A DNA stretch of 64,000 bases from Alphaproteobacteria bacterium (GTDB taxonomy: Bacteria; Pseudomonadota; Alphaproteobacteria; SMXS01), in assembly GCA_028284945.1 (NCBI GenBank), contig JANQQJ010000041.1:1-64000 (forward strand), written 5' to 3'. The translations under genes were made by a program, and so were the position numbers. The notes beneath the pieces were generated by a model. That model was given only the letters and a program-made list of their open reading frames with translations. It had not been told where the DNA came from and made no database searches. Positions 15,638 through 25,315 of this stretch are shown here, piece after piece. Numbering within the stretch: the stretch's first letter is position 1; each line of letters starts with the position of its first letter.

Positions 15638-16279
15638 ATGCAAATAGATGTGATTTCAGATTCCATCTGCCCGTGGTGCTTTATCGGCAAGCGGCGGCTG
15701 GAAAAAGCCCTGGCGGAGCGCCCCGATCTCGATGTCGAGATTGTTTGGCGACCGTTTCAGTTGAACCCGGAAACCCCAGCCGAAGGCTATGACCGCAAGG
15801 AATATCTTGAGGCCAAGTTCGGCGACAAGGAACAAGCCAAGGGCGTCTACAAAATGGTGCGCGCGGCCGCGGAAGAAGAAGGCCTGGACTTTGCGCTCGA
15901 GACCCAGAAACGGCTCCCCAACACGATTGATTCTCATCGGCTGAACCACTGGGCGCATACCGCCGGTGTTCAGGACGCCGTGGTTGAAGGCCTGTTCCGG
16001 AAGTATTTCATCGAGGGTGAAGATATCGGCGACCCGGAGGTACTGATTTCGGTTGCCGAGGACGCCGGCATGGAAGCCGACGTTGTCCGCAAGCTGCTGG
16101 AAGGTGACGCCGACCGGGACCTTGTCCTGAAAGAAGAAGCCGTTGCCCGCAATATGGGGGTGACGGGTGTGCCGTGCTTTATCGTCGACAAGAAACTTGC
16201 GCTCGTCGGCGCGCAGGAACCGGATATGCTGCTGCGCGCTATCGACCACGCATTGGCACAGGCTGACGCGGCAGAATAG
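15638..16279 (+). CDS. DsbA family (FrnE-like) thiol oxidoreductase
   Basis: A cytoplasmic DsbA-fold protein of 213 residues without a signal peptide: CPWC active site (C11-C14) just after the first strand, helical insert, and TGVPCFIVDKK with the cis-proline. FrnE-like proteins are disulfide isomerases, and 2-hydroxychromene-2-carboxylate isomerases share the fold; the CPWC motif and the extra Cys after the cis-Pro favour FrnE. Divergent from accA across 178 bp. Confidence 0.9.
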   Translation: MQIDVISDSICPWCFIGKRRLEKALAERPDLDVEIVWRPFQLNPETPAEGYDRKEYLEAKFGDKEQAKGVYKMVRAAAEEEGLDFALETQKRLPNTIDSHRLNHWAHTAGVQDAVVEGLFRKYFIEGEDIGDPEVLISVAEDAGMEADVVRKLLEGDADRDLVLKEEAVARNMGVTGVPCFIVDKKLALVGAQEPDMLLRAIDHALAQADAAE

Positions 16280-16384
16280 CCAACGGGCCGCAAAAACTTC
16301 CGGCGCGTCGGGTCAAGCGCCCACGGGTCTCCATAAGTACCATTGGTATTCGTGATCCTTTCCGGGTCGCTAGGGGAGTTTCAT

Positions 16385-18229
16385 ATGCTGGGCCTGACGC
16401 CGCTTGTTCCGGTACCGCGACTGCATCGTGGCCTGGCCGTCGCAGCGCTTCTGCTCAGCGGCATCCAGCTCGCTGGATGTGCTAAAGAGGACGGGCCGGG
16501 CAATGCCATCCCCAACAAGAATGTCTATTTCGGCGACCTCCACCTGCACACCCGCTATTCCAATGACGCGTTCTATTTGACCACTGAAGAAGGCCTGGAC
16601 GCCGCCTACACCTACGCCAAGGGTGAACCCGTGGTTCGCAGCACCGGCGAGACGGTGCAGATGAAAAATCCACTCGATTTTATGGCGGTGACGGAGCACG
16701 CGGAATTTCTCGGCGCCATCCAGTCCTTTACTGACCCGGATCACCCGCTTTATGACCATCCGGCACTGGGACAACTGCTTCAGTCACCGGAAAGCAATGA
16801 GCGCATGAAGGCGTGGTTTGCCTTTGAAGCCGCCAGGCGCGAGGCTGGCACGCTGGAGGGTTTTGACGAAGTCGCGCTCAAGAAGGCTGTATGGACCGCC
16901 ATTGTCGACGCCGCCGACCGGCACAACGACCCTGGCACCTTCACAACATTCGCCGCCTATGAATGGACCGCCTATATCGATGGCGGCAATATGCACCGCA
17001 ATGTCATCTTCAAGGATACGAAGGACCTACCGGTCCCGTTTACGGCAGAAGATTCGATCTACCCTGAAGATTTGTGGAGTTTTCTGGACGCACTTCAGGC
17101 AGAAGGCGCCGAAGCCATCGCGATACCCCATAATCCGAATATGAGCGATGGCCGAATGTTCACAACGTTGGATTCGCGCGGTCAGCCCATCGATCACGCC
17201 TATGCGAAACGGCGGCAGGGCCATGAACCCGTGGTTGAGATCACGCAGAACAAGGGGACGTCGGAAACCCATCCCGAGCTATCGCCCTATGACTCCTTCT
17301 CGGACTTCGAGATCTTCGGCAATCTGCTGCAGGGATATAACCGTGTTGGCAAGCTGGAGGGCAGCTATGCCCGCGAAGGCCTCCTCACGGGCGTTCACTC
17401 ACACGCCGCTCACGGTTCCAATCCACTCAAATTCGGGTTTATCGGTTCCACCGACAGCCATTCGGCCCTGTCCATTGTCGAGGAAGATAATCTGCCCGGC
17501 TTTGGCGGCGCGACCTACGATGCAACACCAGAATCCCGCTGGGACCGTGAACTCTGGAACGGCATGCCTTATTGGGCGATGAGCACGGCTGGAGTCACAG
17601 GTGTCTGGGCAGAAGAAAACACGCGCGAGCACATATTCGAGGCACTCCGCCGGCGCGAAACCTTTGCCACGACAGGCCCGCGCATTCGCGTCTGCGTCTA
17701 CGCAGGACACGGATATGACGAAGCGTTGATGAACCAATCCGACTGGGCGGAAAAAGCAGCCGCAACAGGCGTCCCAATGGGCGCGGTTCTCCCCAGAACT
17801 TCAAAAACAGAACCGCCGCAGTTCCTTGTCTGGGCCGCAAAAGACCCGAGAGGCGCCAATCTAGACCGCATCCAGATCATTAAGGGTTGGAGCGACGGAG
17901 ACCACGCCCAGATACTGATTTATGATGTTGCCTTATCCGACGGCCGGTCAGTCGCGGCAGATGGCACCGTGCCGCCTGTCGGTAATACGGTAAACGTTGA
18001 AAGAGCGACCTATTCCAACGACATTGGCGCCGGTGAACTCAAGGCCCTGTGGATCGATCCGAAGTTCGACCCAGATGTGCCAGCGTTCTATTATGTCCGG
18101 GTGATTGAAATTCCGACTCCACGCTGGTCTACCTTCGACGCAGCCGCCCTGGGCAAGACCATTCCGACAGACATGCCGGCAACAATCCAGGAACGCGCCT
18201 TTTCCTCCCCCATCTGGTACGAGCCATGA
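16385..18229 (+). CDS. DUF3604 lipoprotein (PHP-like metal-dependent hydrolase)
   Basis: A 614-residue exported lipoprotein with a lipobox LAGC (C32) after a hydrophobic signal segment. The mature N-terminus YFGDLHLHTRYSNDAF (48 onward) with FMAVTEHAEFLG and IAIPHNPNMSDG are the metal-binding His/Asp motifs of DUF3604, distantly related to PHP phosphoesterases. The substrate is unknown. ATG at 16385 has a strong AGGGGAG; an upstream in-frame start lacks one. Its TGA overlaps the sulfatase ATG by 4 bp, so the two are translationally coupled and probably act on the same extracytoplasmic substrate. Confidence 0.88.
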   Translation: MLGLTPLVPVPRLHRGLAVAALLLSGIQLAGCAKEDGPGNAIPNKNVYFGDLHLHTRYSNDAFYLTTEEGLDAAYTYAKGEPVVRSTGETVQMKNPLDFMAVTEHAEFLGAIQSFTDPDHPLYDHPALGQLLQSPESNERMKAWFAFEAARREAGTLEGFDEVALKKAVWTAIVDAADRHNDPGTFTTFAAYEWTAYIDGGNMHRNVIFKDTKDLPVPFTAEDSIYPEDLWSFLDALQAEGAEAIAIPHNPNMSDGRMFTTLDSRGQPIDHAYAKRRQGHEPVVEITQNKGTSETHPELSPYDSFSDFEIFGNLLQGYNRVGKLEGSYAREGLLTGVHSHAAHGSNPLKFGFIGSTDSHSALSIVEEDNLPGFGGATYDATPESRWDRELWNGMPYWAMSTAGVTGVWAEENTREHIFEALRRRETFATTGPRIRVCVYAGHGYDEALMNQSDWAEKAAATGVPMGAVLPRTSKTEPPQFLVWAAKDPRGANLDRIQIIKGWSDGDHAQILIYDVALSDGRSVAADGTVPPVGNTVNVERATYSNDIGAGELKALWIDPKFDPDVPAFYYVRVIEIPTPRWSTFDAAALGKTIPTDMPATIQERAFSSPIWYEP

Positions 18230-19824
18230 GCGTTCGTCAAACATGCTTGGCGCTGGGCCTTATTGCGCTCCTGTTTCCCGGCATCGCCCACGCTGCTGGA
18301 AGTGAGGCCCCGGCCCGGCCCAATATCCTGTTCATCATGTCTGACGATCACACCAAACGCGCGATCAGCGCTTATGGCGTCGACCTGGCGGAAACCCCAA
18401 ACATCGACCGGATCGCCAATGAGGGCGTGCTGTTCCGGAATGCCTTTGTCACCAACTCGATATGCTCGCCGTCACGCGCGGTGATGCTGACCGGAAAGTT
18501 CAGCCACTTCAACGGAGTGCGCGACAACGGCCAGCCCTTCGACGGGTCGCAACCGACATGGCCAAAGATGCTGCGCGCCCTGGGTTATCAGACCTCCATC
18601 ATTGGCAAGTGGCACCTGAAGTCCGAGCCCGTGGGGTTTGACGAATGGCAGGTGCTGATCGGCCAGGGTGAATATTACAGTCCGCGCTTCAAGAACAAGG
18701 ACGGCATCGACCAATATGACGGTGCCTATGTGACCGATAAAATCACCGACATCGCCATCGCCACGCTGGAGGCCAGGGACAAGTCCCGACCCTTCATGAT
18801 GCTCTATCACCACAAGGCACCGCACCGGAACTGGATGCCGCGTGCTGATGATCTGGACCGGGCTGAGGCGTCACAATTCCCGCTGCCGCCGGATTTCTTT
18901 GATACGTTTGAAAGGCGGCCTGCCGCCAAAGAAGCCGACATGCTGATCGCCGACATGTTCCTGTCCTATGACATGAAGCTACAGCCCGGTGAGTATGACA
19001 CAGAAACCGGCTCTGGCGGCGCCCATCACCTGCCCAATAGAGCAGAGCTCGGGGAAAGCGTCTGGGCGCAGGATTATGCCCGGCTGACACCCGATCAGAA
19101 GGAAAAATGGGACGCGTACTATTCTGCCGTGAACGCCGAGTATCAGGCGGTCAAGGACGATCCGGCGGCACTCGCCCGCTGGAAGTATCAGCGCTATCTG
19201 AGCGACTATATGGGTACGGTCAAAGCGCTCGACGACAATATCGGCCGCATGCTGGACTACCTCGATGCCAACGGGCTGAGCGAAAACACCATCGTCGTCT
19301 ACACGTCCGACCAGGGGTTCTATCTTGGTGAACATGGCTGGTACGACAAACGCTTCATGTATGAGCAGTCCATGTCGACGCCCTTGGCGCTGCGTTACCC
19401 GGCTGCCGTCGCACCCGGCCAGACGGTCGATGCGCTGGTGCAGAACATCGACCTTGCCCCCACTTTCCTGGACTATGCGGGTGCGGCCGTTCCCCAAGAG
19501 ATGCAGGGTTATTCCCTCGCACCGCTGACGGCCGCCGATACTGTCAATCAGGGTCCATGGCGCACGGGTCTTTTCTATCACTACTATGGCGAACCGGGTG
19601 GCTGGCACAATGTGCCCGAGCATTACGGAATCCGCACACGCCGGCACAAGCTGATCCACTTCAAGGGTGAGCACGATCACTGGGAAATGTATGACCTTGA
19701 AACAGATCCGCGGGAGCTGAAAAACCTCTATGGCCTAGCCGAACACGCCGACCTGCAGGCCGACTTACACGAGCAGCTTGAGGCACTTCGGGTACATTAC
19801 GGCGATCCGCACGCGGGGCATTAG
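18226..19824 (+). CDS. Exported type I (formylglycine) sulfatase
   Basis: Alkaline-phosphatase-fold sulfatase of 532 residues with signal peptide (1-24). NILFIMSDDH (metal Asp 40/41) is followed by C80-S-P-S-R, the Cys-type sulfatase signature in which the Cys becomes formylglycine. GKWHLK, a DNIGRMLDYLD stretch and SDQGFYLGEHGWYDKRF resemble N-acetylglucosamine-6-sulfatase/glycan sulfatases of family S1. The substrate is probably a sulfated glycan or ester, not determinable here. The maturase is not in the window. Confidence 0.92.
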   Translation: MSVRQTCLALGLIALLFPGIAHAAGSEAPARPNILFIMSDDHTKRAISAYGVDLAETPNIDRIANEGVLFRNAFVTNSICSPSRAVMLTGKFSHFNGVRDNGQPFDGSQPTWPKMLRALGYQTSIIGKWHLKSEPVGFDEWQVLIGQGEYYSPRFKNKDGIDQYDGAYVTDKITDIAIATLEARDKSRPFMMLYHHKAPHRNWMPRADDLDRAEASQFPLPPDFFDTFERRPAAKEADMLIADMFLSYDMKLQPGEYDTETGSGGAHHLPNRAELGESVWAQDYARLTPDQKEKWDAYYSAVNAEYQAVKDDPAALARWKYQRYLSDYMGTVKALDDNIGRMLDYLDANGLSENTIVVYTSDQGFYLGEHGWYDKRFMYEQSMSTPLALRYPAAVAPGQTVDALVQNIDLAPTFLDYAGAAVPQEMQGYSLAPLTAADTVNQGPWRTGLFYHYYGEPGGWHNVPEHYGIRTRRHKLIHFKGEHDHWEMYDLETDPRELKNLYGLAEHADLQADLHEQLEALRVHYGDPHAGH

Positions 19825-19918
19825 CACCGCGGAGCCAAACCGCCGCTTTTGAAGCCATGGCTGACGCGGTAGGATCAACGCAACATATTCGCGTTTTTTT
19901 CCAAAGAGGAACCCAACC

Positions 19919-20296
19919 ATGCCCCGCTATACCCTGATCGGCCTGTGCGAACCGCAAAGCGACGAGAACCAGGCCGCGTTCGACGAATGGTTCATCGATC
20001 AGCACATCGAAGACACGGCCCACTGCCCGCATATGATCAGCGGCAGTGTTTATGAGCTCAAAGGCCCGCACCTGGATATCGAAAATGCCTCACGCTATCT
20101 GTCGGTCTATGAAGTCGAGGCTGAAAGCTATGAAGAGGCCGAACGAATTTTGAATGAATGGCAGGCCGATCCCAATGCCTGGGAAGGCCGCGCGCATCAC
20201 CAGGCGACTGGCGACAAATATGGCGGCATCCCCATGAATATCAGAGGCTCAGGCTGGTTTGAGCTGATCAAATCCTATCCGGGCCCAAAGGCATAA
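19919..20296 (+). CDS. EthD-like dimeric alpha/beta-barrel protein
   Basis: A 125-residue cytoplasmic protein starting MPRYTLIGLCEPQSDENQ with an EWFIDQHIEDTAHCPHM segment, the hallmark of ferredoxin-like dimeric barrels of the EthD/DUF4286 type that often shield small hydrophobic ligands. AGAGG lies 8 nt upstream. It is 94 bp after the sulfatase and 43 bp before the MDR reductase, probably in one transcription unit. The exact family is uncertain. Confidence 0.72.
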   Translation: MPRYTLIGLCEPQSDENQAAFDEWFIDQHIEDTAHCPHMISGSVYELKGPHLDIENASRYLSVYEVEAESYEEAERILNEWQADPNAWEGRAHHQATGDKYGGIPMNIRGSGWFELIKSYPGPKA

Positions 20297-20339
20297 GCCC
20301 GAAGACCAAAAGTTTTTTCTAATCCATTTGGAGCAGTCC

Positions 20340-21482
20340 ATGTCTGACATCCCCGCCAAAGCCCTTCAATATCGCACGCTCGCCAATGCAGATGGCACAC
20401 TCACCATGTCGCTGGAAGAAGTGGACGTGCCCGAACCCGGCCCCGACGAAGTGCTGATCCGGGTTGAAGCCGCGCCGATCAACCCGTCGGACCTGGGGCT
20501 GATGGTGGGTGCTGCTGATATGAGCACCGCCACCGTCAGCGGCACGGCGGACAGACCCGTTGTGACAGCCCAGGTGCCCGAGATCGGCATGCGGTTCATG
20601 GCGGGCCGCCTGGGCGATTCCCTGCCAGCAGGCAATGAGGGGGCTGGCGTCGTTGTCGCGGCTGGATCATCGGATATGGCGCAGGCGCTGCTTGGCAAAA
20701 CAGTCTCTGTCGCGGGTGGCGAACTCTATAGCCAGTATCGCTGTGCTCCGGCCATGATGTGTATGGAGCTACCCGAGGGCACGACCGCGGCGGAAGGCGC
20801 GTCTTGTTTTGTTAATCCTCTCACCGCGCTGGGTATGACCGAAACCATGCGCATGGAGGGTCACACAGCCCTGGTGCATACCGCAGCGGCCTCAAATCTG
20901 GGCCAGATGCTGGCCAAGATTTGCGTGGCTGACGACATTCCGCTCGTCACCATCGTCCGCAAAACCGAGTACGAAGCGATCCTGCGCGACATCGGCACCA
21001 AGCACGTGCTCAATTCGACCGCACCAGACTTCATGGATCAGTTGATTGCGGCACTGGCTGAAACCGGCGCCACCCTGGGCTTCGATGCTATCGGCGGCGG
21101 GCCCCTGGCCGGACAAATTTTGACTGCCATGGAGGCCGCGCTCAACCAGACGGCGACCGAATACAGCCGATATGGCTCATCGACGCATAAACAGGTCTAT
21201 ATCTATGGCCGGTTGGATATTTCCCCGACCGAAGTCGGCGCCGGGGTCGGTCTTGCCTGGGGGCTTGGCGGTTGGCTGCTGACACCGTTCATTGAGAAAA
21301 TCGGCATCGAGGGCATGCTGAAAATGCGCGCCAGGGTATTGGCGGAACTAAAAACGACCTTTGCCAGCCACTACACCGCTGAAATCTCGCTCGCGGAAGC
21401 GCTCGATATTGACACGATCAACGCCTACAACCGCCGCGCAACCGGCGAGAAATACCTGATCAACCCAAATAAGAGTCTCTGA
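20340..21482 (+). CDS. MDR superfamily NAD(P)H-dependent oxidoreductase
   Basis: Medium-chain dehydrogenase/reductase of 380 residues without the structural zinc cysteines: GroES-like N-domain (EPGPDEVLIRVEAAPINPSD), LPAGNEGAGVVVAAGSS, then a Rossmann domain with HTAAASNLGQMLAKIC and GFDAIGGGPLAGQ. This matches quinone/enoyl-type MDR enzymes and not zinc alcohol dehydrogenases. The ATG at 20340 has GGAGCAG upstream; a start 12 bases earlier is less good. Last of four same-strand genes from 16385. Confidence 0.85.
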   Translation: MSDIPAKALQYRTLANADGTLTMSLEEVDVPEPGPDEVLIRVEAAPINPSDLGLMVGAADMSTATVSGTADRPVVTAQVPEIGMRFMAGRLGDSLPAGNEGAGVVVAAGSSDMAQALLGKTVSVAGGELYSQYRCAPAMMCMELPEGTTAAEGASCFVNPLTALGMTETMRMEGHTALVHTAAASNLGQMLAKICVADDIPLVTIVRKTEYEAILRDIGTKHVLNSTAPDFMDQLIAALAETGATLGFDAIGGGPLAGQILTAMEAALNQTATEYSRYGSSTHKQVYIYGRLDISPTEVGAGVGLAWGLGGWLLTPFIEKIGIEGMLKMRARVLAELKTTFASHYTAEISLAEALDIDTINAYNRRATGEKYLINPNKSL

Positions 21483-21490
21483 CCCGTCGC

Positions 21491-23602
21491 CTAACGCCGC
21501 ACGCCCTGCCGCCGCCAGATGCTGACGCCATAGCGTCCGGTGAGCTCTATCCTGCCATTGTCCAGGAAGCGGTAGGTGACAGTCTCGGTCAGGTTTAGCG
21601 AGGGCGTGGTCTGATACATCACACCGCCGCTGGCGGTATAGGCACCCATGGTCAGGCCCTGGCCGTTATTGAAGATGAACTTTCCGTCGGCCCGGAATTC
21701 GGTGACCCAACCTGTAAAGGGCGGGTTCTCCAGGGCCCAGATGCCGACAATGGCCGGATCAAGAGTCTGATCGTCAACCGGTTTTGGCTTCGCCGCCTCG
21801 TCAGACTGGTCATCCGCCTTGTCCGTTTGATCACTTTCTCTGGGCGGGGCATTGCCAAGAAAGGCCTTAAGCCCGCGAAGGTCTGCTGCGGTCGCCTCGC
21901 AAGCGTCACTGTTCTTGCAGGTAACTGATGCACCGCGCATTTCCCAAAGACCAACGGGCAAAACAAGGCCCGCACAATAGTTCTCTTCGCCGGCACAGGC
22001 GATGTTAAGAATCTTCTGCTCCTTCAACGCCACCAAACGGTCCGTCCGCAGCGTCTCGGAATCCATCAGGTCGAGGGCGAACGCCATGTCGGCAAACATC
22101 TCCTTATCCTCATCGCCGCATTGTTCTCCTTCGACGCAGAAATACCCGGTAATCAGGATCGAATTGTCAGTATCGAATTCGGCATCGCGCTGGTGAATTA
22201 GATAGGTCAGGTCTATGTCGCTTATGGGCACGCGCCACGGTTCCTCGCGCAGCCGGTCTGCAATGCGCTTAAGCGCGTCTTCCGCATCGTCCCAATCGTC
22301 AATCTCGGTGACCGGATGGGCTTTCGCCATCATCTCAGCAACAAAGTCGTCATAGGCGGGTGTCGCGGCGAAACTGACAAGCGACATTATGGACCAGAGC
22401 GCGGTGTAACAGGTCTCAGCATCCTTGCAGGGGATGGTGCCGGTCTGACTGCGGAACGAGATGCCGACTCCGAACTCTTCAATACAAACCTCAGGCGCGT
22501 GACAGGCGAGGACCAGGGACTTGCCCTCCCACTCTGTAACAATCTCGCCGCCTTCCTTCTGGTTCTTCCAATCATGATAGATGGACCGGGCGGGATTGAT
22601 GTTCTCGATATCCACGACCATCAAGAGAGAGTCCCAATTCTGCTTGTCGTCGCATTTGCCTGGGTCGTTTTCGGCACAGACCTCAACGCTCAATTGCGGC
22701 AACCCTTCCCTGTTCATCCCAAAGGATGTTGCCTGGCGGTGGATCCTCTTTACGGACTCGATCCCGTTGGCTGAAGCATGAAGCCTTCCCTTGGGAAAAT
22801 GTTCCTCGAAGTCGGCCCCCGCAATCACGCCATTGATGATGGCGATCTGGTCCTTGATCTGGTTGGCATCGGTGATGTGCGGCCGCATCGCGGCCCGGTC
22901 CAGCAGCTCGCGAAACAGCAGAAGCGCTTCACTGCAGGTCTCGGCCGTGCCGCATTCGATGGTCATGGATTTTGAAGCCGCGCGGTTTCGCGCAAAGTCG
23001 ACCATTGATGCATGGACGGCTTCCTGCGCATTGCGCTTCATATCGCTGCAATCGTTGTTTTCGCAGCTATCGTACTCGTCATCATCATGGCGAATGCCAC
23101 GGGCCCGCAGACAGCTGGCATCCCCCGCCGCGGCGCACTCGAACTTCAGCGCATGACCCACTTCGCCACGAGCCGTGTCAGGCGCAATAATTCGGATGGA
23201 CCTGGGGTCAACCAGATTGGGCTCGATAGAATAGCCGACCGGTGTCCCACGGCCGTCTGCGCATTGTTCTGCGGAGTCCTCGGTGCGGCAATCCCATTTG
23301 TCGAGGCGGATATCCCAATAGGGCGGGGAAAACATGAAAGTCTCGATGTATTGGACGGTAAAACGATCCGTCCGCTCAATGGGTTCCCATCCTTTGTCGG
23401 CCTCGATGGCCGGGTCTTTACGCAGCGTGACCGACTTATAGACAAGGTCGCTGAGGTCGTCGGCCACGCTTTCAGGGCTTCGTTCGCTGCTGTCTCCACA
23501 GCCGGCAAGCGAGAGCCCTAAAACCAATAATAGCCCGAGGCCGCGACGCGGCGTCTTGGCGCGCACCTTATTCGGGTGCACCGAGAAATCGCTGTAGCCC
23601 AT
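21491..23602 (-). CDS. Large lipoprotein with ten spaced cysteine pairs, unknown family
   Basis: A 703-residue lipoprotein (lipobox LAGC, C35) I cannot assign. The mature part contains ten short Cys pairs at 105/114, 156/164, 180/185, 217/223, 309/317, 367/373, 392/398, 489/495, 536/543 and 562/568, mostly C-x5-C to C-x7-C with acidic or polar spacers, each near the end of a strand-like segment and often followed by an amphipathic helix. CGTAETC, CKDAETC and CKNSDAC look like copies of one unit. An Asp/Lys/Pro-rich linker (586-612) leads to a C-terminal beta-rich domain (about 618-700, GIWALENPPFTGWVTEF... GRIELTGRYG) like small lipocalin-type sensor domains. It converges on the MDR gene (8 bp). 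Confidence 0.8.
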   Translation of the reverse strand: MGYSDFSVHPNKVRAKTPRRGLGLLLVLGLSLAGCGDSSERSPESVADDLSDLVYKSVTLRKDPAIEADKGWEPIERTDRFTVQYIETFMFSPPYWDIRLDKWDCRTEDSAEQCADGRGTPVGYSIEPNLVDPRSIRIIAPDTARGEVGHALKFECAAAGDASCLRARGIRHDDDEYDSCENNDCSDMKRNAQEAVHASMVDFARNRAASKSMTIECGTAETCSEALLLFRELLDRAAMRPHITDANQIKDQIAIINGVIAGADFEEHFPKGRLHASANGIESVKRIHRQATSFGMNREGLPQLSVEVCAENDPGKCDDKQNWDSLLMVVDIENINPARSIYHDWKNQKEGGEIVTEWEGKSLVLACHAPEVCIEEFGVGISFRSQTGTIPCKDAETCYTALWSIMSLVSFAATPAYDDFVAEMMAKAHPVTEIDDWDDAEDALKRIADRLREEPWRVPISDIDLTYLIHQRDAEFDTDNSILITGYFCVEGEQCGDEDKEMFADMAFALDLMDSETLRTDRLVALKEQKILNIACAGEENYCAGLVLPVGLWEMRGASVTCKNSDACEATAADLRGLKAFLGNAPPRESDQTDKADDQSDEAAKPKPVDDQTLDPAIVGIWALENPPFTGWVTEFRADGKFIFNNGQGLTMGAYTASGGVMYQTTPSLNLTETVTYRFLDNGRIELTGRYGVSIWRRQGVRR

Positions 23603-23682
23603 CTGCCTGACTCCCGTCCGACAGATTTATCCTAACCCAACTTGCGGCCGTTTCGGATGAAAAATGACCCGGAAGTGAGAGC

Positions 23683-24657
23683 TCACCCCTCCAGTCGTTT
23701 TACCGTCTCCATGAGCACCTCGGCCTGACGGACCGACGCGATATCGATCAGCTTGCCATCCAAGGCGACGGCGCCACGGCCTTCGGCCAGAGCCTGCTCC
23801 ATTGCGTCCAAGACCTTTTTCGCCTTTTCGATCTCATCGGGGGACGGGCTGAACAGTTCGTTGCCCAGATCCACCTGAGATGGATGGATCGACCACTTGC
23901 CTTCACAGCCCAATACCTTCGCGCGCAGCGCCTGCGCGCGGTAACCGTCAGGGTCAGAAAAATCGCCGAACGGTCCGTCGATGGGGCGCAGACCATGTGA
24001 GCGGGCGGCCACCACCATGGTAACGATGGCCTGATGCCACATGTCGCCCCAATAGGTGTTGCGTTCGCCGTTCTCATCAGGGTTTGACAGCACGACATAG
24101 TCGGGGTTCGGCCCGCCAATCTGAGTGGTCTTCATCCCCATGGAGGCGGCGAAATCCGCGACGCCGAAATGCAGGCTTTCATTGCGCGGGCTGGCCGCGG
24201 CAATCTCATAAATGTTCCGAAGGCCCTGGGCCGTCTCCATAATATGTTCGAAGCCTACGCGCTTTTCGCGCCCCTTGGCCCATTCAATCTGGGTGCACAG
24301 CATGTCGAGCGCATAGACGTCCTTGGCGTTATCGACCTTGGGCATCATCAGCAGATCAAGCCGCTCACCAGCCTGTTCCATCAGGTCAACAACGTCACGG
24401 TACATATATTGGGTGTCCGCCGCGTTGATACGCACAGAGACCGTCTTTTCACCCCAATCGAGATCGTTGATCGCCTCAATCGCGTTTTTGCGTGCCATGT
24501 CCTTGTCCGACGGCGCGACAGCATCTTCAAGATCCAGGAAGACCACATCAGCCGCTGACTGGGCCGCTTTTTCCAGGAACCGGGTATTTGAGGCAGGAAC
24601 CGCGAGTTCACTGCGGTTAAGGCGCGCGGGCGCCTGTTCGATGGGGGTAAAGGCCAT
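23683..24657 (-). CDS. mcl1: L-malyl-CoA / beta-methylmalyl-CoA lyase
   Basis: CitE-like C-C lyase of 324 residues that cleaves beta-methylmalyl-CoA to propionyl-CoA and glyoxylate, and L-malyl-CoA to acetyl-CoA and glyoxylate, using Mg2+. VVFLDLEDAVAPSDK carries metal-binding acids, followed by VSVRIN, LLMMPKV, HFGVADFAASMGM and KWSIHPSQV. The DFAASMGM and DGPFGDFSDPDGYRAQA segments are those of Mcl1 of the ethylmalonyl-CoA and 3-hydroxypropionate pathways. The ATG at 24657 (MAFTPIEQAP) is preferred to one four codons upstream. No other pathway enzyme is adjacent; methylmalonyl-CoA mutase and MeaB lie 15-20 kb away. Confidence 0.88.
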   Translation of the reverse strand: MAFTPIEQAPARLNRSELAVPASNTRFLEKAAQSAADVVFLDLEDAVAPSDKDMARKNAIEAINDLDWGEKTVSVRINAADTQYMYRDVVDLMEQAGERLDLLMMPKVDNAKDVYALDMLCTQIEWAKGREKRVGFEHIMETAQGLRNIYEIAAASPRNESLHFGVADFAASMGMKTTQIGGPNPDYVVLSNPDENGERNTYWGDMWHQAIVTMVVAARSHGLRPIDGPFGDFSDPDGYRAQALRAKVLGCEGKWSIHPSQVDLGNELFSPSPDEIEKAKKVLDAMEQALAEGRGAVALDGKLIDIASVRQAEVLMETVKRLEG

Positions 24658-24690
24658 GGTTTTCCTCAACGTCGACAGGGGAGAATGGAT

Positions 24691-24799: not shown

Positions 24800-25315
24800 T
24801 TAAGAACTTGGTACCCTTGGTGTTGCCAACACGTAGATGCCGGCGATCACGAACCCTGCACCGAAAAGCGTGCCCGCCACGGGTACGGCGATTACCTGGA
24901 ATCCCGTACCCATCCCCAGAAGGCCCACCGTGAATGACGCGAGCCACATCCACCCGGCTTGAGCGAAAACGCCGGTGCGGACGAATTGCAGGCCGAGCAC
25001 CGCCATGCCCGCGGAAATGAGAACAGTTCCCGCCTGATACGTATCGACGCCGAAGGCAACCGTATCCGGGCCAACGATACTGGCCAGCCCGGTGGCCGCT
25101 ACGACAAAGCCAACAAAACCGGTCCATCCGACCCGGTCCAGCGTCTGCAGAAAAATACCCATCAGACCAAAAAGCAGCGCGATATCGATAATCAGGTAGA
25201 AAACCTCAAGCCATCCCGCTGTCGGGTCATAGGGGATGAATGTCGAGATCATGCGTAACCCGCCACCGATGATGGCCTCAATCGCCGCCAATTGAACAAG
25301 AAGCCGCAAGGTCAT
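24800..25315 (-). CDS. Small polytopic membrane protein, unknown
   Basis: A 171-residue protein with about five or six membrane helices and short loops (hydrophobic stretches near 5-25, 38-60, 65-88, 95-112, 120-138, 143-165). No recognisable catalytic motif; in outline it resembles DUF4386-like or small integral membrane families, but I would not assign it. Its ATG overlaps the xerD stop by 4 bp, so it is coexpressed with xerD. Confidence 0.75.
   Translation of the reverse strand: MTLRLLVQLAAIEAIIGGGLRMISTFIPYDPTAGWLEVFYLIIDIALLFGLMGIFLQTLDRVGWTGFVGFVVAATGLASIVGPDTVAFGVDTYQAGTVLISAGMAVLGLQFVRTGVFAQAGWMWLASFTVGLLGMGTGFQVIAVPVAGTLFGAGFVIAGIYVLATPRVPSS

Follow-up and report, generated by a model that had tools for sequence, protein, structure and literature searches.

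The lipoprotein gene and its neighbourhood

The window, that is, the whole stretch of 64,000 nucleotides that was analysed, carries a gene for a predicted lipoprotein, located in a segment that sister genera lack at this position.

16280-23682, no strand assigned: segment not found at this position in sister genera, flanked by a DsbA/FrnE-like gene (15638-16279) and a CoA-ester lyase gene (23683-24669)
21491-23602, minus strand: whole gene of the predicted lipoprotein, 703 aa, ATG start
23498-23602, minus strand: lipoprotein signal peptide, residues 1-35, with an Arg/Lys-rich n-region, a LGLLLVLGLSLAGC lipobox, a predicted lipidated Cys35 and Gly as the +2 residue

The 703-residue frame is a real, resident gene: it has a GC3 of 0.69, and its codon usage follows that of the other long frames in the window (r = 0.96, equal to the highest values found there). 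The sequence GGGAG, 8 nt upstream of the ATG, may serve as ribosome-binding site; promoter- and terminator-like sites in the surroundings occurred at chance level. The coordinates given in the earlier note were exact, as was the minus strand, and the note's designation of the product as a lipoprotein is borne out by the lipobox LAGC at C35. As read from the sequence, the N-terminus (MGYSDFSVHPNKVRAKTPRRGLGLLLVLGLSLAGC35) consists of a basic n-region, a hydrophobic core and the lipobox LAG-C35, i.e., a signal peptide with a lipobox ending in Cys as in bacterial lipoproteins, with lipidation as a predicted step. The mature form has an acidic pI of 4.57 and carries a net charge of about -48.

The gene occupies a slot whose content varies between genomes. 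In sister genera, only 0-2 small genes separate the lyase gene from the DsbA/FrnE-like gene; they are an SDR gene or, judged by eye, toxin/antitoxin-like pairs. Here the slot is filled by a 7.4-kb segment that encodes, on the plus strand, a DUF3604 protein, a sulfatase, a 125-aa protein and an MDR-type oxidoreductase, and then, on the minus strand, the lipoprotein, whose gene lies 80 bases after the lyase gene. The best named relatives of the lyase gene are in alphaproteobacterial metagenome assemblies. On the plus strand, the DUF3604 gene (16343-18229) and the sulfatase gene (18226-19824) overlap by four bases and probably form one operon. Between the lyase gene and a XerC-like gene, positions 24800-25315 encode a predicted membrane-like protein of 171 aa, for which we obtained no blast match in the examined sister-genome loci and no NCBIfam match.

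Cysteine pairs and module architecture

The lipoprotein contains 21 cysteines, the lipobox C35 and 20 more, which amounts to a Cys content of 3.0% compared with mostly 0.3-1.5% in the clearly coding neighbours. All 20 non-lipobox cysteines (20/20) fall into close C-x4-8-C pairs, giving ten non-overlapping pairs (105/114, 156/164, 180/185, 217/223, 309/317, 367/373, 392/398, 489/495, 536/543 and 562/568). When the sequence was shuffled 20,000 times with its composition preserved, the mean was 2.15 pairs and the maximum 7, and none of the 20,000 shuffles reached ten, which confirms the ten pairs observed earlier. Such a number of close pairs within one bacterial envelope lipoprotein is unusual. 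The pairs are distributed along the protein as follows.

22883-23386, minus strand: module 1, residues 73-240, pairs 105/114, 156/164 and 217/223, with a further pair, 180/185, located in an insertion
22349-22783, minus strand: module 2, residues 274-418, pairs 309/317, 367/373 and 392/398
21833-22225, minus strand: module 3, residues 460-590, pairs 489/495, 536/543 and 562/568
21770-21859, minus strand: linker rich in Asp/Glu/Lys/Pro, residues 582-611, delimited from the sequence
21494-21769, minus strand: putative C-terminal lipocalin-like domain, residues 612-703 (GIWALENPPFTGWVTEFRADGKFIF...), with weak relatives in L029/L041, L043, L044 and L045

As indicated by this list, the pairs can be arranged in three modules, each some 130-170 residues long and with three pairs in corresponding positions. 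The first and second pairs are about 42-50 residues apart, the second and third are separated by 19 residues in modules 2 and 3 and by 53 in module 1, where the insertion with the extra pair lies, and the third pair is followed by the first pair of the next module after 86-91 residues. This three-by-three regularity gave p = 0.008 against uniform spacing and p = 0.019 against permuted gaps, the top-scoring grouping of the test being one that omits pair 105/114 and not 180/185. Only the third pair of each module has an Ala/Leu-rich, helix-like stretch after it, whereas a helix after every disulfide loop had been proposed. The look-alike motifs CGTAETC, CKDAETC and CKNSDAC are indeed present; they are not equal repeats among the ten, since each is the third pair of one of the three modules.

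We then compared the modules with one another. Modules 2 and 3 can be aligned from end to end with 20% identity, RIHRQATSF of module 2 facing LIHQRDAEF of module 3 ahead of the first pair, and their local alignment was significant against shuffles in which the Cys positions were fixed (z = 3.6, p = 0.010). Without its insertion, module 1 also resembled module 2 (p = 0.004 against shuffles, with a 34-residue cut chosen after inspecting the sequence); untrimmed, it reached only a marginal p = 0.065 with module 2 and showed no similarity to module 3 (p = 0.39). At the DNA level, no repeats marking a recent triplication were found in the gene. We read the three modules as an old internal triplication of which modules 2 and 3, apparently related to each other, are the firm part and module 1 the most diverged member. 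Since the modules have no relatives in the data (see below), conservation brings no confirmation of this reading, and a single-sequence AlphaFold model of the whole lipoprotein (pLDDT 35.5) gave nothing reliable on the fold.

Relatives of the modules and of the C-terminal domain

Searched against Pfam at E up to 1, the whole lipoprotein matched zero families, known Cys-rich repeat families included, and NCBIfam returned no relevant match. When the modules were searched separately against Pfam at E up to 10, we only obtained a chance match to a killer toxin (0.55). The strong hit to a known repeat family that the earlier note had named as a possible refutation did not appear in these searches, either with the whole protein or with the separate modules, and the note's statement that no named family resembles the protein holds. 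No relative of the modules was present among the PDB sequences, nor in plasmids searched by tblastn, nor in GTDB and viral contigs scanned with peptide patterns, a method of low sensitivity that detects close relatives only. Module profiles found no relative in samples of 289 and 385 class genomes, and in whole genomes (385 of the class and 398 of the phylum) only matches to the C-terminal domain and chance matches appeared. In the sample of 96 relatives, the lipoprotein was found in its own genome (1/96) and not in the other 95, which include nine further members of the family. These whole-genome samples overlap in part, come to about 700 genomes altogether and cover part of the class.

The module matches that we opened in class genomes were rejected as chance, because the frames were short, in some cases interrupted by stops, or ran antisense to known genes; for instance, that in L025 lies opposite a photolyase, that in L125 opposite an NADH dehydrogenase subunit and that in L123 within adenosylhomocysteinase. 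Literature searches found no described protein resembling the lipoprotein. As no module relative turned up in the collections searched, the protein looks like an undescribed one, an orphan in one alphaproteobacterial genome; relatives may exist, because the peptide-pattern scans detect close relatives only and the class was sampled in part.

The C-terminal domain gave another picture. Residues 612-703, which contain IVGIWALENPPFTGWVTEFRADGKFIF and come after the D/E/K/P-rich linker, have a layout common to four proteins of other genomes: a zinc-ribbon-like membrane protein (L029/L041), a fragment (L043), a small lipoprotein (L044) and a protein with two copies of the domain (L045). The last of these matched the C-terminal domain by BLASTP with E = 3e-9 in a single-pair comparison. 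The small lipoprotein matched Lipocalin_4 (PF13648) at E = 0.006 and the two-copy protein matched DUF5640 (PF18692) at 0.053, both below the curated cut-offs, and these two weak matchers of small beta-barrel models have, as does the C-terminal domain, a G-x-W start and a D/E-G-x-[FY] motif. In contrast, residues 605-703 of the lipoprotein itself matched no Pfam model at E up to 10, whether Lipocalin_4, DUF5640 or the NlpE profile, and a profile of the domain found no solved relative. The match to L045 and the sub-cut-off scores of L044 and L045 make a lipocalin-like barrel likely but do not prove it. The C-terminal domain is therefore a distinct one, as had been claimed, but it is not new in kind, since weak lipocalin-like relatives exist elsewhere. 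One match, in L027, was discarded because it is glucose-6-phosphate isomerase. The protein at L029:1480-2193 (237 aa) has no Pfam family above cut-off; its N-terminus contains Cys and is zinc-ribbon-like, it has a transmembrane segment, and its C-terminal lipocalin-like domain resembles that of the lipoprotein.

Possible working and alternative readings

In E. coli, a Gly at +2 favours the outer membrane in Lol sorting. The genome studied here encodes DsbB (E = 1e-35), so periplasmic oxidation of the Cys pairs is available. We tentatively propose, with chances that we put somewhat short of even, that the product is an orphan lipid-anchored envelope protein acting as a disulfide-stapled periplasmic scaffold with a lipocalin-like barrel. 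It would be exported by Sec and lipidated at Cys35, and given its Gly at +2 it would probably be sorted to the outer membrane, on the periplasmic face. Under the oxidising conditions of the periplasm, each of the ten close Cys pairs would most likely close a short loop, and these loops may staple the three related modules, apparently products of internal duplication, together as a rigid stalk. Attached to it would be a flexible acidic linker and then the C-terminal lipocalin-like barrel, which probably serves to bind either a small hydrophobic ligand or another protein.

As for the fold of the modules, their possible strand order and helix-like end recall, by eye only, the bacterial PH-like domains (PHb, PF08000), PH-like domains having two sheets with seven strands in all and a C-terminal helix as cap (PMC2817789). 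The modules differ from them in that there is no sequence match and disulfide loops are outside the PH definition. None of the modules matched a PH family profile in Pfam at E up to 10, and a hand-written PH-like probe, a guessed sequence not taken from a database, gave chance matches only, e.g. to diaminopimelate epimerase. We regard as unlikely the idea that the modules represent a disulfide-stapled envelope domain not described before, present in three tandem copies joined to a lipocalin-like barrel; such a domain might be a PH-like fold, heavily modified, whose strand ends are closed by short Cys loops. At present this concerns a single gene with no known phenotype, from one genome among little-known alphaproteobacteria; should the modules prove to share a fold that is new or strongly altered, they would be a disulfide-stapled building block added to bacterial envelope proteins, and the gene would be a clean case of an orphan grown via internal duplication.

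Other readings of the same protein have to be weighed against the stapled scaffold. The ten pairs have loops of similar size and three of them carry near-identical motifs, which is what about ten short equal units in a row, each a strand, a disulfide loop and a helix, would give; this was the reading of the earlier note. It is very improbable in our opinion, since the spacings between pairs run from 16 to 91 residues and recur in the three classes described above, each look-alike motif is the third pair of its module, and spacing and alignments fit three long modules of three pairs each. That the pairs are thiols binding a metal or switching with the redox state of the envelope, and so signal damage instead of stapling loops, also appears improbable. 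A Cys-rich envelope lipoprotein with a lipocalin-like domain is loosely like NlpE, which has a Blc-like N-terminal domain that contains a CXXC (PMC6538781). NlpE is an outer-membrane lipoprotein that also has an OB fold, and the two proteins have in common the lipid anchor in the envelope and, probably, a small lipocalin-like domain. The lipoprotein differs from NlpE in its domain order, its 703 residues, its three Cys-paired modules and its lack of CXXC, and the NlpE profile found nothing in it, as Pfam returned no family for the whole protein and NCBIfam nothing relevant. Its spacings are x4-8, with neither CXXC nor CXXCH, no regulator gene is adjacent, and the CXXC of NlpE was itself shown to be unnecessary for signalling (PMC6538781); the absence of CXXC and this dispensability make a redox- or metal-sensing role less likely.

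A reading that we consider doubtful, but still worth keeping in mind, is that of a fast-evolving surface or accessory protein without a fixed role, kept in a variable slot only in this alphaproteobacterial lineage. Its presence in a single genome of the relatives sample, its absence from the nine other family members and the different small genes that occupy the slot in other genomes all agree with such a protein. The fully native codon usage and the intact modular design, on the other hand, argue for long residence and selection.
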